Positions 559 to 35,419 of a stretch of DNA of 36,268 nucleotides are shown here, in pieces. The DNA is from a virus. The position numbers and the translations under genes were made by a program. The notes beneath the pieces are model-generated. The model saw nothing but the letters and a program-made list of their open reading frames with translations, had not been told where the DNA came from and did no database searches. Location: positions 1 to 36,268 of IMG/VR virus record IMGVR_UViG_3300046750_000047; one strand, given 5' to 3'. Each line of letters begins with the position of its first letter. The first letter of the stretch is position 1.

Positions 559-704
559 AACTAACAAAAAAAGAAAAAGACTTTTTAATTAATTGGTTAA
601 GTGATGATTTGGATATTCAAATTTATAAAAGTAATTTTGAAAAAAACTTAACATTAGTTAAATTATTAAAATCAATATTAAAAAAAATAAAAGAGGAAAA
701 ATGA
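555..704 (+). CDS. Small early protein, 49 aa
   Basis: Lysine-rich, mostly helical ORF starting MKLTKKEKDFLINWLSDDLD and ending KKIKEEK. Both ends use ATGA overlaps: its start overlaps the preceding stop and its stop overlaps the methyltransferase-like gene. GAGGTAAAAAA precedes the start. No family recognised; position and coupling are the main evidence that it is real. Confidence 0.7.
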   Translation: MKLTKKEKDFLINWLSDDLDIQIYKSNFEKNLTLVKLLKSILKKIKEEK

Positions 705-1321
705 AAGTATTAATAGCTTGTGAGTATTCTGGGATTGTCAGAGAAGAGTTTAAAAAACTTGGTCATGATGCCTGGTCATGTGATATTTTGGATACAGAAA
801 TTCCAGGAAATCATATTAAAGATGATGTTTTAAAACATCTAAATTTAGAAAAATATAAATGGGATTTAATAATTGCTCATCCACCATGTACTTATTTATC
901 CAATGCAGGAGCCTGTCGTTTATATCCAGAAAAAGGTAAATTAAATATGGAACGATACCATAAAGGATTGGAAGCAAAAAAATTCTTTATGTGTTTTTAT
1001 AATATGGATTGCAAAATTGCGATTGAAAATCCTGTACAATCAAAAATATTTGAATTACCTAAACACGACCAGGAAATTCAACCATACGAATTTGGTCATC
1101 CATACACAAAAAAAACTAGATTGTGGTTGAAAGGATTGCCAAAATTAAAACCTACAAATATCATTAATAAATCAGAAGTTAAAACATTTATTGAAAGTGG
1201 TACTAGTAGATATAAAAATACAAACAAAAACAAAAACAGATATGTTGCAAGAGGTTCTAAAGACAGATCAAAATTTTGGTCTGGGATTGCTCAAGCAATG
1301 GCTCAACAATGGGGGATATAA
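701..1321 (+). CDS. DNA cytosine-5 methyltransferase-like protein
   Basis: The fold of C5-cytosine methyltransferases is recognisable: an N-terminal SAM-binding strand (MKVLIACEYSGIVREEF), an acidic loop around D28-D31, the catalytic-type motif HPPCTYLSNAG with PPC at residues 61-63, and IENPV with ENP at 109-111. The C-terminus (SGIAQAMAQQW) resembles the closing motif of the family. At 206 aa it is much shorter than canonical enzymes and has little room for a target-recognition domain, as in many small phage homologues annotated only as methyltransferase-like. It may modify phage DNA against restriction, or be a catalytically altered relative. The start overlaps the previous stop (ATGA), with AGAGG upstream. 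Confidence 0.8.
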   Translation: MKVLIACEYSGIVREEFKKLGHDAWSCDILDTEIPGNHIKDDVLKHLNLEKYKWDLIIAHPPCTYLSNAGACRLYPEKGKLNMERYHKGLEAKKFFMCFYNMDCKIAIENPVQSKIFELPKHDQEIQPYEFGHPYTKKTRLWLKGLPKLKPTNIINKSEVKTFIESGTSRYKNTNKNKNRYVARGSKDRSKFWSGIAQAMAQQWGI

Positions 1322-2125: not shown

Positions 2126-2332
2126 ATGTACATAGATAAATACACAATTAATTCTTATGGAAATAAATACAAAGGAAATAAAGAATTAAAAAATCAATTA
2201 CTTACTTCTATTAAAAGTACAGATGGTCAAAGATTAAGAAAGATGGTTGCTTTTTTAGAAGAGTATGAAGATTTACATCATCAATATTCAAGTGATATTG
2301 AATTAATAATAAACATAAAAAGTAATAACTAA
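2126..2332 (+). CDS. Last gene of the plus-strand early block, 68 aa
   Basis: Begins MYIDKYTINSYGNKYKGNKE and continues as a charged helical protein (LRKMVAFLEEYEDLHHQ). AAAGGAAAGG lies upstream as ribosome-binding site. No family recognised. Its TAA overlaps the stop codon of the opposing gene by three bases, so the two operons converge with no space for a terminator between them. Confidence 0.75.
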   Translation: MYIDKYTINSYGNKYKGNKELKNQLLTSIKSTDGQRLRKMVAFLEEYEDLHHQYSSDIELIINIKSNN

Positions 2333-2805
2333 TCTTTATTGTCTGGGGGTATATCGGTTATATCCCCAGATACATCAATCAAATCATCAGAGGTATCTTC
2401 CCAACTAATAGTCATTTTTTGATCTATGTTTTGTTTAATAGGTTTATTATCAGAATATAGATCTGTTAATTTATTTGCTAAAAATGTAATAAACTTAGTT
2501 TTCTCACGGATCCAGAGGATCGCATTAGGATCTTCAATTTCTTGATATTTAAATACTTGAAGTAGTTTATCAATCAGAGTTTGAACTCCGTACTTTCTAG
2601 CTTCAGTTATTTTTATTTCTAATTCCGGATTTTTTTTTAAGTATGCGTAAAACTTCATCAAACTGAACGGATAAGTCTTTTGATCTTCCAGAATTTCTGT
2701 AAGGGTTTTTCCATTTGCTAGAGCATCGCATATTATATCTGCTTGGTTTGTTGTTATCAATTCCTGGTTTGATTTTTTCATGGTAATAGTTTTTGAGTTG
2801 TTCAT
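2329..2805 (-). CDS. Probable terminase small subunit (Sf6 gp1-like)
   Basis: The small subunit recognises phage DNA and delivers it to the large subunit for packaging. Residues 21-85 follow the small-terminase pattern: ADIICDALANGKTLTEILED (helix-turn-helix-like), a short turn, FYAYLKKNPELEIKITEAR, then VQTLIDKLLQVF. Compare the Sf6 gp1-type layout ICxxIAxGxSLRxI, FxxWLxxxxEFxxxYxxARE, AxxLxDEIxxI. The C-terminus is acidic (DDLIDVSGDITDIPPDNKD), fitting a flexible tail. The start at 2805 is supported by AGGA nine bases upstream. Oddly it is not next to the large terminase (32206-33477) but about 6.5 kb away around the circle, in another operon, and it overlaps the upstream gene by about 200 bases. 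Assignment rests on pattern only. Confidence 0.6.
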   Translation of the reverse strand: MNNSKTITMKKSNQELITTNQADIICDALANGKTLTEILEDQKTYPFSLMKFYAYLKKNPELEIKITEARKYGVQTLIDKLLQVFKYQEIEDPNAILWIREKTKFITFLANKLTDLYSDNKPIKQNIDQKMTISWEDTSDDLIDVSGDITDIPPDNKD

Positions 2806-3034
2806 CTGTATAGTTCCTAAACTGCAAGAGGGTTTTTAATTGTTTAATCCTTGTTTTATCTGTATAGTTTTTCTTTTTAAATCCCTTTACATTTTGATAG
2901 CCATGATATTTACACTTGTAAGTATTATTTGCAAGTAGATAACCTTTCATTTTACAGGGTATTTTTAAACCTAATCTTAATCCGGCTCTAGTAAATCCTT
3001 GACAGAAAACTTTTCTCATTGGTCTACCCGGCAT
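2603..3034 (-). CDS. CxxHG-type phage protein, 143 aa
   Basis: The N-terminal half resembles the small phage proteins with the layout C-x-TRxGxPC, CRxHG: here RKVFCQGFTRAGLRLGLKIPC (C11, C27) and YKCKYHGYQNVKGF (C41, H44). These residues could bind zinc. In many phages such genes lie next to terminase genes. The C-terminal 68 residues are translated from the same DNA as the start of the small terminase, in another frame, and look like out-of-frame sequence, so the functional protein may effectively end near residue 75. The start overlaps the preceding stop as TAATG. Confidence 0.55.
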   Translation of the reverse strand: MPGRPMRKVFCQGFTRAGLRLGLKIPCKMKGYLLANNTYKCKYHGYQNVKGFKKKNYTDKTRIKQLKTLLQFRNYTDEQLKNYYHEKIKPGIDNNKPSRYNMRCSSKWKNPYRNSGRSKDLSVQFDEVLRILKKKSGIRNKNN

Positions 3035-3711
3035 TACTTTTTATTCTCCCATGGTTTAATCCCATTACGTTTATTGTATTCAACTTTTTCTCTGTATCTT
3101 GGATTAGCTTGTTTTTTTATCTTGGACAATGCAGCTAATATTTTATCCCCACTAACATATGTTGCATTAGCTTTTATTTCGTTATCTTCTTTTCTTTGAA
3201 TAGCTTGTTTACAGAGGTAAACATTAACAGTTTCTTGTTTTAGTTCATCCAGGGGTAGCTTAGATAATTCATCTAATATCTTCTCGGTATCCCCTGCAAA
3301 ACTCTTAACTATTTTACCTATATTATTAATGGATATTGTTTCTTCTAATGTAGTCGTATTACGGCTATCTCGTGTCGGTGACACGGCTATCTGGGTTGGT
3401 TCGTAAAGTTTTTCTGCTCGCAAAAACACCTCATTTACTACATAAGTTTTACCAGATCTACCTCTTATAGATTTAACAATATTTAATTTATTTAAAGTTT
3501 CCAGGCATTCTTTAATTGTGGTCCTGCAAAGTCCAGTATCTTTATGGATTGTTTCATGTCTTAGTCCAGCTTTATAGCCATTTTTCTTCCATGCATATTT
3601 CATCACAGACAGAAAAACATTTAAACAATAAGACTTTTTAACCCCATCCAATATATCCATATGATGATATAATTTGTAGGTTATGTGCAAAAATCCTCTA
3701 CTTACATTCAT
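3034..3711 (-). CDS. Winged-helix (HTH_36-like) DNA-binding protein
   Basis: Residues 30-97 read as a winged helix: a first helix LNVFLSVMKYAWKKNGYKAG, a recognition unit RHETIHKDTGLCRTTIKECLE, a third helix LETLNKLNIVK, then a beta wing RGRSGKTYVVNEVFL. This layout is common in phage replication-initiation (O-like) proteins and in regulators. The C-terminal half is helical and basic (KIKKQANPRYREKVEY). In a genome with no recognisable initiator it is a candidate origin-binding protein; transcription regulation is equally possible. AAAGGATAAATA precedes the start, which overlaps the previous stop (TAATG). Confidence 0.65.
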   Translation of the reverse strand: MNVSRGFLHITYKLYHHMDILDGVKKSYCLNVFLSVMKYAWKKNGYKAGLRHETIHKDTGLCRTTIKECLETLNKLNIVKSIRGRSGKTYVVNEVFLRAEKLYEPTQIAVSPTRDSRNTTTLEETISINNIGKIVKSFAGDTEKILDELSKLPLDELKQETVNVYLCKQAIQRKEDNEIKANATYVSGDKILAALSKIKKQANPRYREKVEYNKRNGIKPWENKK

Positions 3712-4100: not shown

Positions 4101-4233
4101 TTTTTAATATCCTTATCTCATTCTCTTTTAATTCAATTTCTTTTTCAAGTGCAGCAATAATACCTTTTAATTTTTTTATTTCTTTCTTTGCTTTTTTTAA
4201 GTCGTACTCATCAAATATTCCAGAATATGTCAT
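4090..4233 (-). CDS. Small coiled-coil protein, 47 aa
   Basis: ORF starting MTYSGIFDEYDLKKAKKEIK and continuing as a regular charged heptad-like helix (LEKEIELKENEIRIL). Its start overlaps the stop of the upstream 4230-4490 gene as ATGA and its last codons overlap the start of the 129-aa gene by 11 bases. This fills the only gap in the minus-strand cassette. No ribosome-binding site beyond coupling. Confidence 0.65.
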   Translation of the reverse strand: MTYSGIFDEYDLKKAKKEIKKLKGIIAALEKEIELKENEIRILKNGS

Positions 4234-4490
4234 TTTTCGTACAATATTTTCTTCACTACTTGGCGTGGATATGCAGTTATATTTCCAATGGATAGTTTGT
4301 CTTCATCATAAGAAAAAGAAGTAAATATTTTTACTACTTTAGAATCTTTATAATATAGAAAACCAACGTCTTCGCACCAGGAGTAGCTAAATTTATCCAC
4401 ATCTGCCAGATCGTCATACCATTGGGAAGATGAGCAAATATCAACCCAAATTACACGCACCTTTTTATAGGGTAGTTTTTTTTTAGTCAT
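4230..4490 (-). CDS. Conserved hypothetical protein, 86 aa, first gene of the minus cassette
   Basis: The family is recognisable though unnamed to me: VRVIWVDICSSSQWYDD, then a variable loop, VGFLYYKDSKVVKIFTSFS, and a C-terminal ITAYPRQVVKKI. Many phages carry this layout (WVDxxSxxxW, VGxLxxxDxxxxxxxxS, IPxxxIxxI) in early regions. The ATG at 4490 is preferred over the one at 4496 because CGGA sits seven bases before it, and because the predicted promoter would start transcription at about 4493, leaving almost no leader. Confidence 0.75.
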   Translation of the reverse strand: MTKKKLPYKKVRVIWVDICSSSQWYDDLADVDKFSYSWCEDVGFLYYKDSKVVKIFTSFSYDEDKLSIGNITAYPRQVVKKILYEK

Positions 4491-4499
4491 TTTCATTCC

Positions 4500-4528
4500 G
4501 TTATATAAATATAATCATCCGTTGACAA
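4500..4528 (-). promoter_or_regulatory. Sigma70-like promoter for the minus cassette
   Basis: Reading leftwards, -35 TTGTCA (4528-4523), a 17-base spacer, and -10 TATAAC (4505-4500). The expected start point at about 4493 falls a few bases before the ATG at 4490, so the mRNA would be nearly leaderless. Confidence 0.6.
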
Positions 4529-4550
4529 CTACTATAAATCCCTGTAATAC
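4522..4550 (+). promoter_or_regulatory. Sigma70-like promoter for the recombination block
   Basis: Perfect -35 TTGACA (4522-4527), a 17-base spacer and -10 TAATAC (4545-4550). The -35 overlaps that of the divergent minus promoter within the palindrome GTTGACAAC (4521-4529). The predicted start, about 4557, is only a few bases before the ATG at 4561, and there is no purine-rich ribosome-binding site. Confidence 0.65.
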
Positions 4551-4560
4551 CTAACAAAAA

Positions 4561-5475
4561 ATGGAAAACAAAAAAATAGAAAAAGCATTTTCAATATTTA
4601 ATGGTGGAGAAGGATTAGATCATTGGTCTTATTCATCAACGTCAACACCCTTTGCAAAAAATTTATTAGGTTATAGTTTCCCTCAAGAAGTTAGAAGGAA
4701 GTTTCCATTTAGATACAAAGCAAATTTTGGCAACCTAGTAAACAATGTGGTCCAGAAACAAATCGCAGATGTAATTTATAAATCTAAAACAATTAAAGAA
4801 ACAGAGTGGGATAAAGATTATAAAGTTTGTTTCGATCAAGAAAAAGAAAATATAAATATCAATCCACCTGTTGATGCAAAAGATAAGTTTGGCAGAGAAG
4901 CTATGATTAAGTTTGCCGAAGATTGTATTCCAATTACAAAAAAAGTTGTGCAGCAGATTGTCGAAAAAGATAAATTAGTTTGTGAAAGATATGTTGAACT
5001 AAAAGAATTTGATATGATTAAGCCTATCATTGGTCGTATCGATTATGAAACTAAAACAAAATTTATAGAATTAAAAACTAAACCACCTAATTTAAGGAAG
5101 GTTAAAGGTAAAGAAGAGTGGAACATGATCACTCAAGATTTACCTAGTGAACCTACAATTGAAAACCTTACACAAACTTCGTTCTACTACATGGCAACAA
5201 AGAAAATACCATACTTGGTATATGTTAATGATAAAGATTTTGTCATCTTTGATAAGAGCCATGAGTTAATGAAGGCAGATCACTTGCAGCATCTTTACAA
5301 TATCATGGTAGATAAAATTCTAACATGGGAAAAGATGATTATGTTTTGTGAAGGCAACATCAATAAATTAGCTAACATGATGGAGCCACCAGATCTTAAT
5401 CATTTCTTTTATTATAAAGATTTAGCAGATGAACAAGTACAACTAATCAATAAACTATGGGGTATAAAAATATGA
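4561..5475 (+). CDS. PD-(D/E)XK exonuclease (RecB/lambda-exo-like)
   Basis: A RecB-family nuclease core is visible: IIGRIDYETKTKFIELKTK (residues 157-174) gives the catalytic set D161, E170 and K172, followed by the QxxxY motif (Q205, Y209) in LTQTSFYYMATKKIPYLVYV. The role is 5'-3' resection of DNA ends to expose single strands for the annealing protein encoded immediately downstream, as in the lambda exo/beta pair. At 304 aa it has the usual size for single-domain phage exonucleases of this clan. The ATG at 4561 lacks a ribosome-binding site and probably starts an almost leaderless transcript. Its stop overlaps the next gene as ATGA. Confidence 0.85.
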   Translation: MENKKIEKAFSIFNGGEGLDHWSYSSTSTPFAKNLLGYSFPQEVRRKFPFRYKANFGNLVNNVVQKQIADVIYKSKTIKETEWDKDYKVCFDQEKENININPPVDAKDKFGREAMIKFAEDCIPITKKVVQQIVEKDKLVCERYVELKEFDMIKPIIGRIDYETKTKFIELKTKPPNLRKVKGKEEWNMITQDLPSEPTIENLTQTSFYYMATKKIPYLVYVNDKDFVIFDKSHELMKADHLQHLYNIMVDKILTWEKMIMFCEGNINKLANMMEPPDLNHFFYYKDLADEQVQLINKLWGIKI

Positions 5476-6146
5476 GTAGTGAAACAAACGTCTATCAAAT
5501 GAAGGGAAACAATATGAGTAATATACATAAGAAACTTTATAACGCTTGTAATCATGCGAGTGGTGTAAAGAAAGCAAGTAAGGTTAAAGGTATGCCTTTT
5601 AATCCTTTACTACATGATGATGTGCAAAGAGTTGCAATGGCAGCTCTATTAGAAAATGGTTTATATCCAACCTGCAATTATGTAACAGACATCACAGATA
5701 AATGTGTGATCGTTACTTGCACCATGAGAATAACTGACATCGATGATCCAAAAAGTTTTATTGTGATCGATGGATGTACTGCCATGGGTGGTTTAGATAA
5801 GTACGGAACAGGTCAAGCAATGTCATACAGTAGAAAGTATGCGTTCTTAAATGCTTTGAACTTAAAGACAGGTATGGATTTAGAAGATGGTTATAATGCA
5901 AAACCATTTCAACAAAATTCTTCAGAGAAATCTGTAGAAGAACCTACATACATGGATGATGAAGTGGATGTGGAAGAGATCATTAACAGGATCACAGAAA
6001 CTAAAACTGCTAAACAATTGTCGGCAGTTAAAAATCAAGTGAGATCGGTTGTTGGTCATCTTAAAACTAATAACTTCAAAGCATACGAACAAATTAGAGA
6101 TTGCTCTGCTGCTCATGAAGTAAAACTAAACAATAATCAACAGTAG
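5472..6146 (+). CDS. erf: ERF-family single-strand annealing protein
   Basis: The ERF core ends in the hallmark GQAMSYSRKYAFLNALNL (residues 114-131) followed by the acidic cluster GMDLEDGYN, matching the GxxxSYxRKYxLxxxLgl...DxD pattern. It would anneal complementary strands exposed by the exonuclease upstream, giving recombination-dependent replication or concatemers. The C-terminal third is probably a flexible/helical tail (VDVEEIINRITETKTAKQL). Two starts are possible: the ATG at 5472, coupled by ATGA to the exonuclease stop, or the ATG at 5514, which has AAGGG at good spacing and fits the usual family N-terminus better. Confidence 0.85.
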   Translation: MSSETNVYQMKGNNMSNIHKKLYNACNHASGVKKASKVKGMPFNPLLHDDVQRVAMAALLENGLYPTCNYVTDITDKCVIVTCTMRITDIDDPKSFIVIDGCTAMGGLDKYGTGQAMSYSRKYAFLNALNLKTGMDLEDGYNAKPFQQNSSEKSVEEPTYMDDEVDVEEIINRITETKTAKQLSAVKNQVRSVVGHLKTNNFKAYEQIRDCSAAHEVKLNNNQQ

Positions 6147-7091: not shown

Positions 7092-7140
7092 GTTATTAAC
7101 TTAATAGTTGAAAAAAAAGAAAGGAAACTGTAGGGGATCT

Positions 7141-7668
7141 ATGACCATAAATGTAAGTCAACACTATAATAAACACATCAATAAGTTAAATCAAAATCAC
7201 TTTATCTATAAAGTTAAAAAAGCATTTTACCTTTTAACAAGCCAAGAAGAAAGATTATATGAGGTAGGGTTTTCAGAAGGATTTCTGTACGCAGCAGAAC
7301 TAATGCAGAGACAACCAATAATGGATAGCAATAATAAAACTAAAGTTGCTACTACATTTAAAACAAAGAATGCAAACTTGGAAGTCGTATCTAAACTTGT
7401 AGATAAAGTGTGTGATAAATATACTGTAAGCAAACATGACATCTTTAGTAAAGGTAGAACTAGGGATGTAGTTCGAGCAAGAAGTATAATCTATAATTTA
7501 TTGTATGAAGGTTACAATGTTAGCTTATCTTCTATGAGCAGATTGTTTAATCAAGATCACACTACAATCATTCATTCTATAAGAAATAAAAAAGATAAGA
7601 AAAATTATTGGGGTGAAGAAAATACTATTTGGAAAGAGTTCGAGGAACTAAAACAAATTACTTTTTAA
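7141..7668 (+). CDS. DnaA domain IV-like DNA-binding protein
   Basis: Residues 85-150 match the C-terminal DNA-binding domain of bacterial DnaA: RARSIIYNLLYEGYNVSLSS, then MSRLFNQDHTTIIHSIRN, which contains the DnaA signature DHTTxxHxxxxI. There is no AAA+ ATPase domain: residues 1-80 are a separate helical region of unknown type. It could bind DnaA boxes at the phage or host origin to recruit or block host initiation. The ATG at 7141 is chosen because AGGGG lies just upstream; an in-frame TTG at 7108 has no site. It is the last gene of the block and converges with the end of the late operon. Confidence 0.8.
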   Translation: MTINVSQHYNKHINKLNQNHFIYKVKKAFYLLTSQEERLYEVGFSEGFLYAAELMQRQPIMDSNNKTKVATTFKTKNANLEVVSKLVDKVCDKYTVSKHDIFSKGRTRDVVRARSIIYNLLYEGYNVSLSSMSRLFNQDHTTIIHSIRNKKDKKNYWGEENTIWKEFEELKQITF

Positions 7669-12459: not shown

Positions 12460-13518
12460 TTACCTCGCTGTACATGGTACGTTGTTAGTTCCTACTAGGG
12501 GTGCTGATGCAAATGCCATGTAGATGTAAACTTGACCATTAGTATTTAAACCACTACTGCCAGTTCTAAATTTAAATCCATTTGATACAAAATCACAAGT
12601 ATCTCCATAATCATTTTCAGCATTACTTAAATTTGGAAATAAATTTAATCCTGCAGGATTATTTGGTTCTCTTTTATTATCCATAGTATGCCAATAATAT
12701 CCTGCACTTGTTGTATTTTTCCACATAACAAAAGCAGGTTTAAATCCTGTATAAACAAATGTTCCATCAGTAGAACCATTACCAGTATAAGAACCAAACT
12801 TGCTATAACCAGTTACATCTGCGAAGCAGTAAGCAATCATTGCTGTACTTGAAGGATTAGTTCCACCATAAGAAGTAGGAAATCCAAAAGTATTTGTACT
12901 ACTACTAAATATACCAGATGCAGTAGCTTGAGCATCTGTTTTATTTAAAATTAAATATTTATCTCCACCAATTGCTGAATGATAATTTAACCAATCTCCA
13001 GTGGTTAATCTTTTTATCATAATTACTTTAGGTGCTACACCTAAACCATGACCAACAGTTGCACCATCAGTTCCATTTCCTGTATAAGACACAATACTAA
13101 ATCCACTTGTAGCTGATGCTGAAACTGTAGAACTTATTGAACCATCTGTATTAGCTGAACCTGCTCCATTTGCTAACCAGTTCCATGACACATAATTATC
13201 GCCAGTATTATTTACATGATTTCCTTCATTTGTTCCTGCATTTGTAGTAAAACCATCACTATCAAATCCAGATAAATAACCATTAGCACCAGAATCTACT
13301 TCTGCAATATCTTGTGAACTTCTTACTTCTTTATTTACACCTCTTACTGCATCATAAAGAACATGCTGATAAGAACCACCTCTATTTTTAATCCATACCC
13401 AATCTGGTTGAAAGCCAACTCCTGTTATAGCTTGTGTGTTTCCTGCAGATGTTGCTGTACCAGTATAAAGTTTAGTATTAAAATAATCTGATGATTTATT
13501 GATAGTTGTGTATGCCAT
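12460..13518 (-). CDS. Tail fibre-type protein with three repeated modules, 352 aa
   Basis: Three versions of one module are visible: YTGTATSAGN...GVGFQPDWVWIKNR near the N-terminus, YTGNGTDGAT...GLGVAPKVIMIKRL in the middle, and YTGNGSTDGT...TGFKPAFVMWKNT later. Each has a Y-T-G-N-G strand, a G-F/V-x-P turn and a hydrophobic strand followed by basic residues. This resembles the DUF7483-type proteins common in marine phage tail regions. A host-recognition role fits its position between two other fibre genes. Start shares a base with the previous stop (TAATG). Confidence 0.75.
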   Translation of the reverse strand: MAYTTINKSSDYFNTKLYTGTATSAGNTQAITGVGFQPDWVWIKNRGGSYQHVLYDAVRGVNKEVRSSQDIAEVDSGANGYLSGFDSDGFTTNAGTNEGNHVNNTGDNYVSWNWLANGAGSANTDGSISSTVSASATSGFSIVSYTGNGTDGATVGHGLGVAPKVIMIKRLTTGDWLNYHSAIGGDKYLILNKTDAQATASGIFSSSTNTFGFPTSYGGTNPSSTAMIAYCFADVTGYSKFGSYTGNGSTDGTFVYTGFKPAFVMWKNTTSAGYYWHTMDNKREPNNPAGLNLFPNLSNAENDYGDTCDFVSNGFKFRTGSSGLNTNGQVYIYMAFASAPLVGTNNVPCTAR

Positions 13519-14846
13519 TATAAGTTTAATCCTTTTGTTGATAAAGCAGTAAAGCCAGTTGGTACATCATATTCAAATATTCCTATGCCACTTGCGTTAG
13601 TTCCTGCACTAGATACTGCTGTTGTTCCGAAGTAGCCATTACCGAAGTTTGTTTGATATGTAGATGAAGTATTATGAATATTTGCTCCTTGTGCATAATA
13701 AAAACCACTAGCAGGAGAAGTATCTATATCTAAACCATTTGCACCAGTTGATGGATTTCCAGAACCTTGAAAAACTCCATTTTTACTATAATAAATTTTG
13801 TGATTATCTAAATCCATAGCAACACCAATAATATCCCCTGCTCCAAAAGTAGCACCAAAAGCTGTACCTGTGCTACCAATTACTGATACACCAGTACTGC
13901 CATAGTAAGAACGCATTTTATTATTTCCAGAATAAGGTGTAAAATCATTATTGTTTGATACTTTATCAGCGATACCAATAAAATCTTTATTAGAACCAGA
14001 TGCACTAATTTTTACTTCCCAATAATATTTTCCAGAAGATGCACCTAATGTACTTGTAAAATAATTTTCTTTTGAGGCATTTGTTACTACTGTATTATTT
14101 CCATTAGAAAATGTGCCATCAAACCAACCATTATCTAAAGCGTTCATTGTAGCAAAAACATTGCTTGGACAATCTTCTGTTTTTGTAAGTGTACCACCAC
14201 CAACTGTAAAGTTATTAGAATTACCAGATTGGTCTGTAACTGAATTACCATCTTTTAAAATAAAGAAACCATTAGTTCCATAAGTTACACTTGGAGAAGT
14301 ATTTATTTTCCATTCTCCAGTTGTTGCGTCTGTAGAACCAAATGTAGATGCTTGATAAGCTGTGCCATCTATATTGTGAAAATGAGACATACAACCATCA
14401 AAAAGTCTAGCATTCCAAGCACCCTCTCTACCTATTGAATGTACTCTTGCATCATTCCATTTAAAAACTGCATTTAATGATGGGTGATTAGTTGTACTAA
14501 ATGAAGTTTCTCTAACTCCATTAACATATATTTTAATTCTATCGGCTTCTGTACTTTCTGTGCTATCAGCTGTTAAAACAATATGATACCAACCATTAAA
14601 ATCTCTAAATAATCTATTTGTCACATATTCAAAAGTAAATGCTTCTCCTGCTCCATTTATTTGTGCAATTCTTAAAGCATGACTATTATTAAACTCTACA
14701 AATACTTGGTTATATCCATTACTATCTCCTGAACCAGATATTGCATGGTGACCAGTGCTACTTCTTTTAACCCATACAGATTGTGTAAAAATTTTATTAC
14801 TTGTTCCTGCACCACTTGGTGTTCTTGTTAAATATGTACTAGCCAT
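13518..14846 (-). CDS. LamG/SPRY-type tail protein, 442 aa
   Basis: Two concanavalin-like beta-sandwich domains are suggested. Residues 20-170 read like LamG (FTQSVWVKRSSTGHH, FNGWYHIVLTADSTE, RIKIYVNGVRETSF, FDGCMSHFHNIDGTAY). Residues 250-410 read like SPRY (KYYWEVKISASGSNKDFIG, GDIIGVAMDLDNHKIYYSKN). Such domains bind sugars or proteins, so a receptor-binding role at the tail is likely. The start (14846) and stop (13518) each share one base with the neighbouring genes, indicating coupled expression with the fibre. Confidence 0.75.
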   Translation of the reverse strand: MASTYLTRTPSGAGTSNKIFTQSVWVKRSSTGHHAISGSGDSNGYNQVFVEFNNSHALRIAQINGAGEAFTFEYVTNRLFRDFNGWYHIVLTADSTESTEADRIKIYVNGVRETSFSTTNHPSLNAVFKWNDARVHSIGREGAWNARLFDGCMSHFHNIDGTAYQASTFGSTDATTGEWKINTSPSVTYGTNGFFILKDGNSVTDQSGNSNNFTVGGGTLTKTEDCPSNVFATMNALDNGWFDGTFSNGNNTVVTNASKENYFTSTLGASSGKYYWEVKISASGSNKDFIGIADKVSNNNDFTPYSGNNKMRSYYGSTGVSVIGSTGTAFGATFGAGDIIGVAMDLDNHKIYYSKNGVFQGSGNPSTGANGLDIDTSPASGFYYAQGANIHNTSSTYQTNFGNGYFGTTAVSSAGTNASGIGIFEYDVPTGFTALSTKGLNL

Positions 14847-17479: not shown

Positions 17480-20038
17480 CTATAAACCTTTAAACAATGT
17501 TGATGGTTTTGTAAACAAAAATTCTTGACCAGATTCACGCATTCTTTTTTCCATACGCCTTAAAGAACCCGGAGACAAAGTTTCCATCATTTGATAACCA
17601 ATAAGATAATCAAATGCTGTCTTTATATAGAATAAATTTAAAAATGGAATGTTTTCTTTAAAAGAATAATATGCTTGTTTTCCTGCTTTACCACCCTCTC
17701 CTCTTATAGCATAATTTAAAGCAGATAATAATCTTACACCTTCTGTGGGTACTGGTCCGGCAATAGTAGCTAAAGCACTTGTCGAGTTTTGAATATTTCC
17801 AAATAAAAAATCAGTATAAATACCTAAACCACCACCTTGTAAAAAAGCAGCAGAAAAGTTTTTAAAATTTAATTCAGTTCTAGGAGTTTTACCTTTTAAT
17901 ATATCTTTTGCTGTCATAGCGATATAACCAAATAAAGCAGATCCACCAACTAACTGTGCAATACCTAACATTGCATCAATTTTTTTACCTTCTTTCCACA
18001 TAGCAGTTTCTCTGCCAATCATTTTTTGATAAAATGCAAATGGAAACGCTTTAAATTGAGACATAAATCTTAATGCTTCACCGGGATGAGTTCCTGCTTG
18101 TTGACCCATTTTCATCCAACCTCTTGTTCTAGCATCTGGTTCTAGTACGGCATAAGTTGCTCTATCTAAAAACATTCCTAATACTTTTGTTTTTAAATTG
18201 TCTCTAGCAACTTCTAATTGTCTTGCAGACATTGTAGTTTTTCCCTCAATATCTTTAATAACAGCATCTGATAATTTATCTATTTTTTGAGTATTAAAAA
18301 ATAATTTACCATCATCAGCTTTATCTAAATCCATTTTTCTAATATGATTCCAAATTTTTTCATCAATACCATAATGTGAAATTAATCTTTTAAATTGAAA
18401 ATTTAAATTTTTAAAAGAAGTTTTAGTTTGTTTGGCAACATAATTACCCATACCTAATATAGCACCATCTTTTAATGAGTTGGTCCACCAAGCAAGACCA
18501 TTAAGTTTAAAGAAAGTTCTTTGTACTTGAGAGAAACCTCTGTTTAAATTATCACCTGCAGAATATCTTGCAGCTAAGTCATAGATAATATTGTCGTTTA
18601 TAAAACCTAACTGTTCAGCAATTTCTTGTTTAGCTTTTGAATTTTTAATTTTAGCAAGTCTACCCATAGCTTCTGCAAGACCCCCTATGTAAGATCTTCC
18701 TTGCCATTTCATTTCTTTTGCATAAAGATGAAGATCAGATATTGCTGAAATTGTTGCACCACCTAGTTTTGCCATAGAAGCAATTGCTCTAGATATTGCA
18801 CTCCATTTAGCATAACCAAATCCATTAATAGTATTTACAGATCCATCTACCTCTGCCATAAATTTTGCATGACCACCTTGTTCTTTTGCAAAAGCACCAA
18901 CTGCTTGAGCTTGAGTTTGTCTACCATCATCTTCTAATTTATTTTTTACTAAATCCATTATCTTTGCATAATTTTTTTGAGGATTGCTTCCAAGTTTACT
19001 CATCATTCCAACATTTTTACCTGCAACATGAAATCCACCAAAGATAGCTTCTTTTAAATTTCTACCACCAAACATAGAATTATAATCATACCAATCATCT
19101 GCACTTTTAAAATGTAAAACTCTTTTTGCTCCAAGTTGTCTAACCATACTTTTTGCACCAAAAGTTTCTCCTGCAGAATTAACAATTTGATTTTCATTTC
19201 TAATCAATGAGTTGTATGATCTAGTTAAAAATCTATCTATATCTTCTGGAGTATTGTCAGTTTCAAAAAAAGTTCTTTTATGATCTAATTTAGGTAAAAT
19301 GTAATCTTTCCATGCTTGTAAATTTATTTCTGCACTACCATTAGATATTTTTGATTTTACATTATTTTTTACATTAATAGTATTTAAAGCATTTCTTAAT
19401 TGAAAAGGATCTGAACTTTGTCTTATAATCCAACCTGGAAGTTTATCTATATTGGCTCCATAATTGTTATATTTTTTTCTTACCGTCTCTGAAAAATCCT
19501 CAATAACTTGAGCAAGTTTAACAATGTCAGCATTTTTTTCTGTAATAGCTTTACCTTCTCCAAGTTCCCAAATAACTCTAGAAATTTTTCTTTCAATATC
19601 ATCGTTAGCTTTAGCAAATAAATCATCTACACCTGCTTCTTTTAGTTTGGCATTAAATGATACAACTAAATTTTTATAGTAAGCATCTTGAGCTGCAGCA
19701 ACTGAATCTCTTGCACCCATTCTTTCCCAGTTACTACCAACAAGTATTGCAGTTAAACCTTCTTTTGGATTATCTTTAAAGTTAGTTAAGTTCCATTCAA
19801 CCCAATCTCTAATTTTTATTTCATCTTCTATTGCGTTTAATTTATTTAATTGTTTTTGTATTTGTTCTTTTTGTAAAATTTCTTTAGCAAGAGCAGCATT
19901 AACTTGATCATCTGCTTCTTTTAATTTTGCGTCACTTTCTGCTTTTTTAATAGATTTAAGAATACCTGCTGCATCATCTTTATCTAAACCTTTTTTAATT
20001 AACGCATCTTCTATTCTTATTAAACATTTATCTGCCAT
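17480..20038 (-). CDS. Internal virion (ejection) protein, gp16-like second part, 852 aa
   Basis: Very long helical protein in the position of T7 gp16, just before the tail fibre. It begins with charged helices (MADKCLIRIEDALIKKGLDK) and includes alanine/glycine-rich semi-hydrophobic segments (residues about 445-470, and MLGIAQLVGGSALFGYIAMT near 710), which fit a protein that enters the host membrane during DNA ejection. No lytic transglycosylase motif is visible. With the adjacent 489-aa gene it totals 1341 residues, close to T7 gp16 (1318). Function is from synteny. Confidence 0.7.
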   Translation of the reverse strand: MADKCLIRIEDALIKKGLDKDDAAGILKSIKKAESDAKLKEADDQVNAALAKEILQKEQIQKQLNKLNAIEDEIKIRDWVEWNLTNFKDNPKEGLTAILVGSNWERMGARDSVAAAQDAYYKNLVVSFNAKLKEAGVDDLFAKANDDIERKISRVIWELGEGKAITEKNADIVKLAQVIEDFSETVRKKYNNYGANIDKLPGWIIRQSSDPFQLRNALNTINVKNNVKSKISNGSAEINLQAWKDYILPKLDHKRTFFETDNTPEDIDRFLTRSYNSLIRNENQIVNSAGETFGAKSMVRQLGAKRVLHFKSADDWYDYNSMFGGRNLKEAIFGGFHVAGKNVGMMSKLGSNPQKNYAKIMDLVKNKLEDDGRQTQAQAVGAFAKEQGGHAKFMAEVDGSVNTINGFGYAKWSAISRAIASMAKLGGATISAISDLHLYAKEMKWQGRSYIGGLAEAMGRLAKIKNSKAKQEIAEQLGFINDNIIYDLAARYSAGDNLNRGFSQVQRTFFKLNGLAWWTNSLKDGAILGMGNYVAKQTKTSFKNLNFQFKRLISHYGIDEKIWNHIRKMDLDKADDGKLFFNTQKIDKLSDAVIKDIEGKTTMSARQLEVARDNLKTKVLGMFLDRATYAVLEPDARTRGWMKMGQQAGTHPGEALRFMSQFKAFPFAFYQKMIGRETAMWKEGKKIDAMLGIAQLVGGSALFGYIAMTAKDILKGKTPRTELNFKNFSAAFLQGGGLGIYTDFLFGNIQNSTSALATIAGPVPTEGVRLLSALNYAIRGEGGKAGKQAYYSFKENIPFLNLFYIKTAFDYLIGYQMMETLSPGSLRRMEKRMRESGQEFLFTKPSTLFKGL

Positions 20039-20040
20039 AA

Positions 20041-21510
20041 TTATTTACCAATCCTACAGTTAATTCCTTCCATAATTGCACTTTCATAATCATCTGATTT
20101 AGTTTTTATATCTTCTAATGCTTTAGCACTAATTCTAGCTTCTTTACTAGTTCCTAAACCTAATTTATTTTGAGCTTCTATTTTAGCTGTTAAGTTATTT
20201 TCAGCAATTCTAAGTTCTTCATCTAAGTTTCTAGATTCCAAAGATGTTTGTGCTTTATCTTTATCGTATGCTTTTACAATACTATCTTCTTGAACATTTT
20301 TAGGTTTTGTTTCAACTCTTGAAGTAATTTCTTGTGGTTTATTTGTAATTCTTTCATCAATTAATTTACTTCTATTAGTAAATTGTTCTACTAATTCTTT
20401 TTCTTTTTTTAATAATTTAGATTTTACTTTTTTTAATTTTTTTAATTCTGGAGTATATTTAACATTTGATATTTTTCTTTTTGGATCAAAATAATTTTCT
20501 AACATATTAATTTTATTTTGAACTTCTTTTAACTGTCTATTAACTTCTACACTTTCTTCATTTACTTTTTTTCTAGCTTTCTCTACTATATTTTCATCTA
20601 TTTGTGAGTGTCTTAATCTAGGATTTAAATCAGCATAATCTTTTGAATTAACAGGAGCTTCTTCAGCAATATCTGCTATTGCTTTTGAAAGCAACAATTC
20701 TCTAGTATCCGAATCTGTTTCGGCAAGTTCTTTCATTATTCTAGAATTTTCTGGATAATATTCTTTGTATAGATTGAATGCAGGATCTTCATCTGCTTTA
20801 GATCCTAATTCTTTTCTAGTTTGTCTAATTCTTTTATTAAATTTTCTACGAGTATTTAGATCTTTTAATTTACCTGCACCTATATGTAGACCACCACCAA
20901 GAATAGTACCAAAAGATACTGCTATAAAACTATCTACTAATCCATAATCAGATTGTTCTGCAGTTGCAGCACCATAAACTAATGGTTCAACAGCAGCTAT
21001 ACCTGTAAAACCTTCCATTGCACCTCTCATCATTCTAGCTTTTGTAAATCCATATTTAGCAACTAGACTTGCAAATCTTGCTTGACCCACTACAGGAATA
21101 AACATCATAGCAAGGTTAATAGGATCTGCCATACTTGCTACCATTGCAGTACCAAATTTTGCAGTACCTGCTACAAATCCTGTTGGTCCACGCTGGATAA
21201 TACTTTGTCTATATCTTTCTTCTTTTTTTCTTTCTGCTAAAATTTCTGCAGTAGATTCTTTTTCATCTTCTTCAAAAAAAATTCCAGTTCCTTTATATTT
21301 TTTATTTAATTCTTGAAATGGTATTAAAGGTTCATCAACATCTCTACTTTGCTCTAACTCATATAATCGTAAAGCAGAAGATACCGGGTTATATTTCCAA
21401 GCATCTTTTGCCGTCTCTACAAGTACATCTGTAAGATCGGTTTGAAATTGATCAAAGCCTGTTTGCTTTGCATATTTATTTACTTCTAAACCGAATCCTA
21501 TATTTGCCAT
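20041..21510 (-). CDS. Internal virion (ejection) protein, gp16-like first part, 489 aa
   Basis: Begins MANIGFGLEVNKYAKQTGFD, an opening I associate with internal virion proteins of marine podoviruses. Residues 105-210 hold several glycine/alanine-rich hydrophobic stretches (TAMVASMADPINLAMMFIPV, FIAVSFGTILGGGLHIGAG) that could insert into membrane. The remaining C-terminal half is a lysine/glutamate-rich coiled coil. It follows the gp15-like gene by five bases and precedes the 852-aa gene by two, so the T7 gp16 position is occupied by two genes. Confidence 0.7.
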   Translation of the reverse strand: MANIGFGLEVNKYAKQTGFDQFQTDLTDVLVETAKDAWKYNPVSSALRLYELEQSRDVDEPLIPFQELNKKYKGTGIFFEEDEKESTAEILAERKKEERYRQSIIQRGPTGFVAGTAKFGTAMVASMADPINLAMMFIPVVGQARFASLVAKYGFTKARMMRGAMEGFTGIAAVEPLVYGAATAEQSDYGLVDSFIAVSFGTILGGGLHIGAGKLKDLNTRRKFNKRIRQTRKELGSKADEDPAFNLYKEYYPENSRIMKELAETDSDTRELLLSKAIADIAEEAPVNSKDYADLNPRLRHSQIDENIVEKARKKVNEESVEVNRQLKEVQNKINMLENYFDPKRKISNVKYTPELKKLKKVKSKLLKKEKELVEQFTNRSKLIDERITNKPQEITSRVETKPKNVQEDSIVKAYDKDKAQTSLESRNLDEELRIAENNLTAKIEAQNKLGLGTSKEARISAKALEDIKTKSDDYESAIMEGINCRIGK

Positions 21511-28566: not shown

Positions 28567-29407
28567 TAATCATTGTTCTCAAAGTAAATACTTGTTGAAC
28601 TACTTTGTCATGATCTGGATGTGCTTTATTCCAATATGGACCATCTCTATCATTAACAAGTTTACTAATTTCAGCTTCATAGTCTGTACCTCGATCAGTA
28701 TTTTCACTCTCTGTACTTATTAATTTATCTTCAGATAATATGTTTGCAATGTTTGCAAAACCTTTAATAACTTCTGGATGATCTCCTAATCTTGTACCAT
28801 CTTTTAGTTCCATATCTAAGATTTGTGGATTCATATTTGCTTTAGCAACTGATCCAGCTTTTTTAATGTTAGCATCATAGTTACCACCCCACTCTTTACG
28901 AAGTTCAGCTTCTGCATTTGCTTGAGCAGTTTCAGTATCTATTCTTGCTTGTTGCACAGATCCTTCCATAGAATTTTTATAAAATTCTAAGATACCTTGT
29001 GCTTGTTTATTATTTAAACCAAGCTGATGAGCATTCTCTGCAAATTGTTTTATTGCACCTTCATCCAATGGAGCTGTTTCTGATTTTACTTCTAACTTGT
29101 ATTTATCTGCAGATTCTGGTCTACCAAGTTTTCCATATACTTCATTCCATTGATCGTCTGTTGAGTTCTCATTTGGTACTGCAACTTTATCTTGACCAAT
29201 CATTCTAGTTGCGTTGATATAGCTTTTAGCTAACGCATCTATTTCAGTAAACTTAGAAATATTTGGATCATTTCTAAACTCTTCCGAGATTGTTTCTTTC
29301 CAAGATTTGGCAACAGTTGATGGTTGTTCAATTGCTTGAGGAGTGTCTGTAGTAGTTGTTGTCTCTTCTACAGGCACATCAGTTTGTGTTATCTGTTCAC
29401 TTGACAT
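28559..29407 (-). CDS. Capsid scaffolding protein, 282 aa
   Basis: Acidic, helical protein in the scaffold position between portal and capsid. It has a disordered threonine/glutamate-rich start (VPVEETTTTTDTPQA), then SWKETISEEFRNDPNISKFT, the conserved IDALAKSYINATRMIG, and the GRPESADKYKL segment usual in podoviral scaffold or capsid-assembly proteins, followed by alanine/glutamine-rich helices. T7 gp9 is 307 aa. It overlaps the preceding 78-aa gene by 11 bases. Confidence 0.8.
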   Translation of the reverse strand: MSSEQITQTDVPVEETTTTTDTPQAIEQPSTVAKSWKETISEEFRNDPNISKFTEIDALAKSYINATRMIGQDKVAVPNENSTDDQWNEVYGKLGRPESADKYKLEVKSETAPLDEGAIKQFAENAHQLGLNNKQAQGILEFYKNSMEGSVQQARIDTETAQANAEAELRKEWGGNYDANIKKAGSVAKANMNPQILDMELKDGTRLGDHPEVIKGFANIANILSEDKLISTESENTDRGTDYEAEISKLVNDRDGPYWNKAHPDHDKVVQQVFTLRTMING

Positions 29408-29633
29408 TCTTATTCTCCTTTTGTAGCATTTGTTTTATAAATAGAAGTACGCTACGTTGACCTTCCATATATGCACTCTCATGACTATCACCTTTTACAT
29501 TAGTGGTAGAATGATAATGACATCTTTTTTCTAAGTCAGACAAAACTTCTTTGCCTTCGTCTGTATTAAAAATATATTGATAGTTGTCTCTAAGTTTTTT
29601 TACTAGATTCTCTAGCTGTTTATTTGTTTCCAT
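29397..29633 (-). CDS. Bbp19-like podoviral protein, 78 aa
   Basis: The segment YIFNTDEGKEVLSDLEKRCH followed by ESAYMEGQRSVLLFIKQML matches the Bbp19-like family of podoviruses (FNTxEGxxVLxDLxxxC, then AxxxGxRxVxxxI). Members are small proteins encoded between portal and scaffold genes; their role is unknown but may be structural. It starts three bases after the portal stop. Confidence 0.75.
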   Translation of the reverse strand: METNKQLENLVKKLRDNYQYIFNTDEGKEVLSDLEKRCHYHSTTNVKGDSHESAYMEGQRSVLLFIKQMLQKENKNVK

Positions 29634-33668: not shown

Positions 33669-33679
33669 ATACTACATCT

Positions 33680-33708
33680 AGTATATTGCTTTTTTAAAAC
33701 AACTAAAA
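33680..33708 (-). promoter_or_regulatory. Possible late promoter
   Basis: On the minus strand TATACT (33685-33680) is a good -10 about twelve bases before the first late gene. The hexamer 17 bases upstream, TTTTAG, is a poor -35, so an activator or an alternative promoter further upstream may be needed. Confidence 0.3.
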
Positions 33709-33810
33709 AATATTTTTGGTAAAGAGTTTGTATAACTGGTGCAGGGTATGTCTGTGTGTCTGTGGAGATTATCCATGTATATATATAAGAAAAAACCTAG
33801 AACGATTTGA

Positions 33811-33827
33811 GGGTGGTAGGGGTGGTA
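33811..33827 (+). repeat. G-rich direct repeat
   Basis: GGGTGGTA occurs twice, at 33811-33818 and 33820-33827, separated by one G. The block GGGTGGTAGGGGTGG contains four G tracts of two or more and could form a two-tier quadruplex. It is conspicuous in this AT-rich non-coding region. Confidence 0.7.
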
Positions 33828-33899
33828 TAAGTTTCAAAAATATCTGTAAATTGTAGAGTTTTTTATTAACGATAATTGTCGACTATCAATACAAATGTT

Positions 33900-33918
33900 T
33901 GATAATCATTAATTATCA
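33900..33918. repeat. Inverted repeat TGATAAT/ATTATCA
   Basis: Seven-base arms TGATAAT (33900-33906) and ATTATCA (33912-33918) with a five-base centre. Possible operator in the control region, but short AT-rich palindromes occur by chance in such sequence. Confidence 0.45.
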
Positions 33919-34000
33919 GAAAAAATTCCGGGTTATTAATTCCGTTTGTTATATCGCATAAAATAAAATTGATTTGCTTGAGATAGTTGAACCATAATTC

Positions 34001-34048
34001 AAACTTTAATTTAAACTTTAATTCTAACTCTAATTCTAATTCCAACCT
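34001..34048. repeat. Four imperfect 12-bp tandem repeats (iteron-like)
   Basis: AAACTTTAATTT, AAACTTTAATTC, TAACTCTAATTC and TAATTCCAACCT follow one another without gaps. The 12-bp period is near one helical turn, so bound proteins would be on the same face. Such arrays are typical of replication initiator or regulator sites, but no cognate protein is proven. Confidence 0.65.
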
Positions 34049-34095
34049 CAATAAACATTAGAACAATTCTAAATTATATATGCGTCAATCTGTCA

Positions 34096-34115
34096 TGTTA
34101 TAATTTTAAATTATA
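34096..34115 (+). promoter_or_regulatory. Extended -10 promoter within a palindrome
   Basis: TG-T-TATAAT (34096-34104) is a perfect extended -10, with no good -35. The -10 starts a perfect odd palindrome of 17 bases, 34099-34115 (eight-base arms around one T), which could be an operator. Transcription would begin near 34111 and read the early operon from 34164. A second inverted repeat, AACTT/AAGTT, follows at about 34121-34138. Confidence 0.55.
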
Positions 34116-34163
34116 TCTATAACTTGCCTTTATAAGTTAAATTAAACAACAAAGGAAAAACAA

Positions 34164-34756: not shown

Positions 34757-35419
34757 ATGATACATATATCAAAAATGACGGGAAAACTTGAGGGTTTTCA
34801 AGCTATATCAACTAATACAACAACAAACGAATATTGTAAAAAACAATATAACAAACAAGATCCAAAAAATATTTGTACTTTTTGCTATTCTCACGAAATG
34901 TTGAATACATTTAGGAAAAATATGGCTCCGGCATTACAAAGGAATACAGATCTTTTAAATTCTAAAGTATTACATCCAGACGCTTTGCCGGTTATTAATT
35001 CGGCTTTTTTTAGATTTAATGCTCATGGGGAATTAGCACTAGATAAAAAGCAAGCAACAATAAATTTAGAAAATTATGTTAATATTGCTTTAAAAAACCC
35101 CCATTGTAATTTTAGCCTTTGGACAAAAAGATTTGATGTGATCAAGCCTTTTTTTGATACACACCAAAAACCAAAAAACTTAATATTGATTTATTCATCG
35201 CCATTAACTAATCATATTATGACAAAAACCCCGAAACATTTTGATAAAACTTTTAATACAGTTGTTGAAACTGATTTCCAGGATCAACAAAATTGCACGG
35301 GTCAAAAATGTAAAGATTGTTTGTTATGCTACAAAAAAGACACAACATCAATCATAGTTGAAAAAGTTAAAACATACGGAAAAAAGAAATTAGAAACCAA
35401 AATGAAAGAGGGTAAATAA
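34757..35419 (+). CDS. Gp88-like cysteine-motif protein, 220 aa
   Basis: The layout of phage Gene-product-88 proteins is recognisable: an N-terminal cysteine set C27, C40 and C43 in NICTFCYSHE, FFRFNAHGEL (85-92, like FRWHDSGD in relatives), NFSLWTKRF, NLILIYSS, and a C-terminal set C180, C185, C188 and C191 in CTGQKCKDCLLC. These cysteines could hold an iron-sulphur cluster or zinc; relatives are sometimes grouped near radical-SAM proteins, but the catalytic role is unknown. It is the largest protein of the early block and has its own predicted promoter. AAAGGAAAAAAAACAA precedes the ATG. Confidence 0.7.
   Translation: MIHISKMTGKLEGFQAISTNTTTNEYCKKQYNKQDPKNICTFCYSHEMLNTFRKNMAPALQRNTDLLNSKVLHPDALPVINSAFFRFNAHGELALDKKQATINLENYVNIALKNPHCNFSLWTKRFDVIKPFFDTHQKPKNLILIYSSPLTNHIMTKTPKHFDKTFNTVVETDFQDQQNCTGQKCKDCLLCYKKDTTSIIVEKVKTYGKKKLETKMKEGK

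Follow-up and report, generated by a model that had tools for sequence, protein, structure and literature searches.

The gene at 7141-7668 (hereafter DnaA_C) raises the question of what a DnaA DNA-binding domain can do for a phage when it comes without the motor of DnaA, and of which protein and which site might serve such a phage in starting its own replication. We addressed this question in the window, i.e. the whole stretch of DNA that was analysed, together with related phage genomes.

Genomic context of DnaA_C

The window is a whole virus record of 36,268 bases from the HTVC010P-type pelagiphage group. Phages of this type belong to the most abundant of the pelagiphages, whose hosts are the SAR11 bacteria of the ocean. 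In the early region, the DNA is 74-90% identical to that of four deposited Pelagibacter phages (HTVC024P, HTVC100P, Greip and Skadi), and the genes follow one another in the same order. DnaA_C closes a rightward early block, consisting of a nuclease, an ERF annealase, a 101-aa protein, DUF3310, an 84-aa protein and DnaA_C, whose order is kept in relatives. The following genes were assigned:

701-1321, plus strand: orphan DNA methyltransferase (PHROG 757, 2.2e-52)
4561-5475, plus strand: 'putative nuclease' by the annotation of relatives, without a Pfam or PHROG match in the window
5457-6146, plus strand: ERF-family single-strand annealing protein (Pfam ERF 4.2e-8, PHROG 9.8e-14)
7141-7668, plus strand: DnaA_C, stand-alone DnaA domain IV protein of 175 aa, last gene of the early block (PF08299, profile, AlphaFold, fold search)
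29397-29633, minus strand: Phage_Bbp19 protein (Pfam 3.3e-17)
34757-35419, plus strand: GP88-domain protein (Pfam 1.7e-8)

An earlier, sequence-only reading of this DNA had described a phage lacking replication enzymes. When most larger ORFs of the window were scanned with Pfam and PHROG, no polymerase, primase or helicase was detected, and to this extent the description stands; however, replication-related genes are present, namely the ERF annealase, the annotated nuclease and the O-like initiator candidate described below. The Skadi phage likewise has no DNA polymerase, helicase or primase of its own and depends on the host, and host dependence is the main account given so far of how HTVC010P-type phages replicate (PMC10504331).

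DnaA_C is already known as a gene. In relatives, it has been deposited as 'DnaA-like' or 'DNA replication initiation (DnaA)', and DnaA is one of the proteins that Chen et al. (2019) listed as present in every HTVC010P-related genome (PMC6811365). It was conserved throughout the HTVC010P-type pelagiphages that we sampled. A scan of genome contigs for the host relative returned only a phage contig, contained in a Woesearchaeota MAG.

DnaA_C is a DnaA domain IV protein without an ATPase

The predicted start codon of DnaA_C is an ATG preceded by AGGGG. An alternative TTG lies upstream at 7108, has no evident Shine-Dalgarno sequence and is used as the start in some GenBank relatives. The protein can be divided into two parts:

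7141-7377, plus strand: N-terminal part, with a helical extension at residues 1-60 followed by a linker that is mostly disordered (AlphaFold, alignment)
7378-7665, plus strand: domain IV region, residues ~80-175 (profile, alignment, fold search)

The sequence-only reading had recognized a DnaA DNA-binding signature in this protein and had noted that the AAA+ motor is missing, and our analysis bears out both observations. Pfam Bac_DnaA_C (PF08299) matched residues 85-148 with an E-value of 1.2e-15 (57.7 bits against a curated cut-off of 31.5), and a profile of 11 DnaA_C homologues found domain IV of E. coli DnaA (1j1v) in the PDB at 4e-10. In an AlphaFold model built on 39 homologues, residues 80-160 had a pLDDT of ~90, and the top PDB match of the model was again 1j1v (Foldseek E 3.4e-4; VIA Z 13.4, rmsd 1.9, 92/94 residues). 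Neither Pfam nor the AlphaFold model revealed an AAA+ domain (domain III); domain IV alone was matched in the 175 aa.

The HTH motifs of ParB and the Trp repressor also gave weak structural matches to the model, as would be expected if DnaA_C were an unrelated transcription regulator that resembles DnaA by chance. However, the best solved matches in the fold search were all DnaA and unrelated HTH folds did not exceed a Z of 5.7, which, together with the Pfam and profile matches, makes a chance resemblance highly improbable. Structure prediction and fold search thus placed the HTH with DnaA and not with unrelated regulators.

We then compared the residues for DNA contact. R399, R407, D433, H434, T435 and T436 of E. 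coli DnaA, which contact the DNA in 1j1v, align with R106, R114, D139, H140, T141 and T142 of DnaA_C, and all six positions, including the DHTT motif, are invariant across the 39 homologues. The position of E. coli P423 is occupied by S or T in most DnaA_C members, an invariant Q takes the place of R432, and one residue is missing from the loop, suggesting that the specificity of DnaA_C may differ from that of its bacterial counterpart.

The N-terminal part, which the sequence-only reading had put forward as a possible partner-binding region, gave no family match in Pfam or PHROG. Residues 1-60 are predicted to be helical, with pLDDT values of 57-85 per ten-residue block, and residues 60-78 to be mostly disordered; Y40, F44 and G47 are invariant among the 39 homologues. 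Together, sequence comparison and structure prediction indicate that the product of 7141-7668 is a DnaA domain IV with a short helical N-terminal extension and without an ATPase.

An O-like gene is the candidate for the main replication initiator

Leftward of the early block, we found a gene with the features of a phage replication initiator and a candidate origin inside it:

3034-3711, minus strand: O-like replication initiator candidate, 225 aa (PHROG, HTH_36, AF2, wHTH fold)
3311-3351, minus strand: candidate unwinding element, an AT-rich stretch next to the iterons with 80% AT (AT profile)
3349-3392, minus strand: iterons in the O-like linker, 44-bp block (direct-repeat analysis)

In relatives, the 3034-3711 gene is labelled 'putative transcriptional regulator'. 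Its AF2 model comprises a wHTH (residues 1-100), a disordered linker (~99-128) and a helical C-terminal region. PHROG replication-initiation families were matched by all 11 O-like members (best 1.5e-7), PHROG O-like families by 10 of the 11 (best 3.7e-7) and HTH_36 by seven (best 4.9e-6). The O-like protein of the window alone gave a weak PHROG match (1.4e-4), and Pfam Phage_rep_O reached 0.064, in one member. Comparison of the wHTH with the PDB yielded only generic wHTH matches (best Z 9.9), with no replication initiator among the matches listed. Searches with Pfam and PHROG recognized no P-like helicase loader, several early genes being without a family assignment. From the sequence of this gene, we infer that its product is the main replication initiator of the phage.

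Among deposited Pelagibacter phage records, the 19 with DnaA_C are also the 19 with the O-like gene, a co-occurrence that shared ancestry alone could explain. Both were also found on the contig from the Woesearchaeota MAG in GTDB (L141, PBPJ01000001.1), where DnaA_C is 56% identical to that of the window; this contig is probably a mis-binned pelagiphage. Also within the O-like operon, and distant from terL, the gene at 2329-2805 (minus strand) matched the Sf6-type terminase small subunit (Pfam 6.9e-8, PHROG 1.5e-9), and its positional counterpart in relatives is labelled only 'putative DNA binding protein'.

In the linker-coding part of the O-like gene, AGATAGCCGT occurs twice, 22 bp apart, at 3361-3370 and 3383-3392 (plus-strand coordinates), and the copy nearer the AT-rich side forms half of an imperfect dyad extending to 3349. 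Since 22 is not a multiple of 3, the repeat is not a peptide repeat. The iterons were first seen by eye, and only afterwards did we set the limits of the linker, the cut-off score of 18 and the not-multiple-of-3 criterion; the statistics were thus run on the same gene after the repeats had been seen and, with 39 O-like genes that are related to each other and not independent, they describe a pattern and are not a blind test. Read in this way, the best direct repeat of the gene falls in the linker in 35/39 homologues, the period of the linker repeat is exactly 22 bp in 32/39, and in nearly all of the period-22 cases the score was reached by at most 1/100 protein-preserving codon shuffles. Four of the 39 homologues had no significant linker repeat, in one further homologue the period-22 repeat was often matched by codon shuffles (p 0.24), and in HTVC203P the best repeat of the O-like gene lies outside the linker.

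The iteron sequence varies by clade (AGATAGCCGT, GTATAAAAAAGATCA, ATGGGTATTAAAGAACAC, ATGTTTCAG and GTGTCTACAGGAC), and the period of 21-22 bp is constant. Genome-wide, the O-like repeat ranked from 1st to 11th in 11 genomes, the repeats above it being mainly low-complexity ones in tail-region genes. As a control, 313 gene chunks were scored, and three of them had a repeat with a score of at least 18 whose period was not a multiple of 3. Among these three, HTVC035P 4167-4845 (period 22) proved to be an O-like gene that the label filter had overlooked, and the remaining two had periods of 35 and 28. Taken alone, synonymous-site conservation showed no clear embedded signal.

Two O-like homologues, L251:1589-2290 and L240:531-1229, have a divergent wHTH, a recognizable C-terminal part and unrelated iterons (GTGTCTACAGGAC), which suggests that in O-like genes the DNA-binding domain has been swapped along with its sites.

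In lambda, the O iterons and an AT-rich tract are located in the O gene (PMC7466680). The iterons and the AT-rich stretch described here look like such a lambda-type in-gene origin, for which the sequence evidence is good and which would function as the phage origin.

No conserved cluster of DnaA boxes was found in the phage genomes

The sequence-only reading had suggested that DnaA_C places host DnaA or DnaB on a phage origin. We counted three box patterns, TTATCCACA (at most one mismatch), TTWTNCACA and TTATNNACA, in 11 genomes and compared the counts with shuffle expectation. The counts were mostly near or below expectation, and canonical DnaA boxes showed neither enrichment nor a cluster shared between phages in these 11 genomes, for a consensus that may not be that of the host. 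In the window, no box cluster was found near the iterons and candidate origin. An apparent depletion of TTWTNCACA (43 seen against 85 expected at order 1) was dropped, as the ratio was 0.77 at order 3 and ordinary among permuted patterns.

Two local clusters of TTATNNACA were seen. In the window, four copies lie within 500 bp at 13208-13690, inside late tail-region genes (reached in 0/60 shuffles). In Lederberg, four copies lie at 19771-20103 (1/60 shuffles), where they overlap in part with the terL-side intergenic region. Because the two clusters are at different places, they were rejected as an origin, and that of Lederberg was kept as a lead.

The terL-side region of the window, at 33669-34163, is a conserved intergenic region of ~500 bp between the late and early blocks. 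It contains a TTAT motif resembling a DnaA box or a -10 element, CCATGTATATATATA and a GATAA...TTATC dyad; TTAGAAnnnTTCTAA is found in the region in most of the 11 phages. As a DnaA box, the TTAT motif was retained as no more than a lead: it is box-like in 11 phages but has lost its CACA half in many of 54, and it can be a promoter -10 element. Clustering of GATAA/TTATC was inconsistent between phages and was not retained as a signal. The GC-skew minimum near 33-34 kb tracks gene direction and was therefore not used as evidence for an origin. The region is probably control or packaging DNA.

These results weaken the suggestion that DnaA_C places host proteins on a phage origin, for which the O-like gene with its in-gene iterons is a better candidate. 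Under this suggestion, DnaA_C itself would recognize the phage origin, and its N-terminal helices would bring in host DnaA or DnaB, in line with the deposited label 'DNA replication initiation (DnaA)' and the retention of domain IV. However, the 11 genomes contain no conserved DnaA-box array, a separate O-like gene that contains iterons is found in the same phages, and the model of the short N-terminal part of DnaA_C has modest confidence. We therefore consider an origin-recognition role unlikely.

Possible roles of DnaA_C

As there is no canonical box cluster and the phage has an O-like gene with in-gene iterons, DnaA_C is most likely an accessory DnaA-box binder and not the main initiator. 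We propose the following division of labour between the O-like initiator candidate and DnaA_C. The O-like wHTH protein would bind the 22-bp-spaced iterons amid its own gene, open the AT-rich DNA adjoining them and bring in DnaB, primase and polymerase from the host. If the phage has its own initiator and origin, recognition of the origin would not require DnaA_C. DnaA_C would instead bind to and cover DnaA boxes, those of the host oriC being the most likely, its predicted targets being TTATNCACA DNA or SAR11 oriC DNA. Having no ATPase, it would not form an ATP-dependent DnaA assembly, so that initiation on the host chromosome would be hindered and the host helicase (DnaB) and replisome would become available to the phage origin. 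Competition of lambda P with DnaA and DnaC for DnaB (PMC7466680) offers a precedent for such competition with the host.

Taken as a whole, this proposal, with the O-like protein as main initiator and DnaA_C freeing the replisome by occupying host boxes, is one to which we give a little less than an even chance. It builds on domain identity, the kept DNA-reading residues, the absent motor, the lack of a box cluster, the O-like similarity and the iterons, from which we infer DNA binding by DnaA_C, its target sites, its effect on the host and the function of the origin. The narrower idea that a phage with an O-type, in-gene-iteron origin also uses a DnaA domain IV without the motor to block the host oriC in a dominant-negative way, and so shuts down host initiation, is tentative.

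Alternatively, DnaA_C may act on the phage genome, at a few box-like sites, as an accessory replication or transcription factor that stimulates transcription or O-like origin activation. Its position in the early replication/recombination block would suit this role, and host DnaA has such a role at lambda pR/pO, where it gives a footprint close to pO and promotes the activation of the origin by transcription (PMC3985674, PMC7466680). The DnaA-like gene of Rhizobium phage RHph_N28_2 directly adjoins a DUF1376 gene, and that of Aurantimonas AmM-1, encoding 396 aa, adjoins a primase gene. The DnaA-box-like sequence TTATNMA(C/A)A recurs at one spot of the terL-side intergenic region. However, in many relatives this sequence deviates from CACA and is readable as a promoter -10 element, and boxes are neither enriched nor gathered in a conserved cluster near the iterons or elsewhere. 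Action on the phage genome is thus possible but somewhat doubtful. Competition for host boxes, the second suggestion of the sequence-only reading, is in our analysis the leading reading of DnaA_C; a helper function at the phage origin, in replication or in transcription, fits about equally well.

If competition for host boxes is true, the phage would take over replication through a decoy copy of the DNA-binding domain of the host initiator, and host DnaB and replisome would serve the phage. The candidate in-gene origin is a more useful outcome than the already known DnaA_C gene, as it gives a specific, testable start for HTVC010P-type replication: a 44-bp iteron block inside a gene labelled as a transcriptional regulator.

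Comparison with known systems

The 3034-3711 gene differs from lambda O in that no P-like loader was identified with it, its sequence similarity to O families is weak, and it has two or three iterons with a period of 21-22 bp, whereas lambda has four of 19 bp. It resembles lambda O and ori-lambda in its N-terminal DNA-binding domain, its mid-gene iterons and the adjoining AT-rich tract (PMC7466680).

DnaA_C shares its fold and most DNA-contact residues with domain IV of bacterial DnaA (E. coli 1j1v, M. tuberculosis 3pvp). Different from the bacterial proteins, it has no domains I-III and hence neither the AAA+ ATPase nor the DnaB-binding domain I. Phage-borne DnaA domain IV is also found in Sulfitobacter phiGT1 (gp62), Rhizobium RHph_N28_2, Microcystis Mae-JY35 and Aurantimonas AmM-1. 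Several of these DnaA C-terminal proteins are encoded near replication or recombination genes, but the rest of their sequence and their neighbours are unlike those of DnaA_C. The closest counterparts are those of the pelagiphages: DnaA_C is 91% identical to HTVC100P gp21, 82% to HTVC024P gp26, 76% to Greip gp42 and 57% to the product of Skadi-1 gene 28, in alignments of full or near-full length and with the same gene order, and these are the same gene as DnaA_C.
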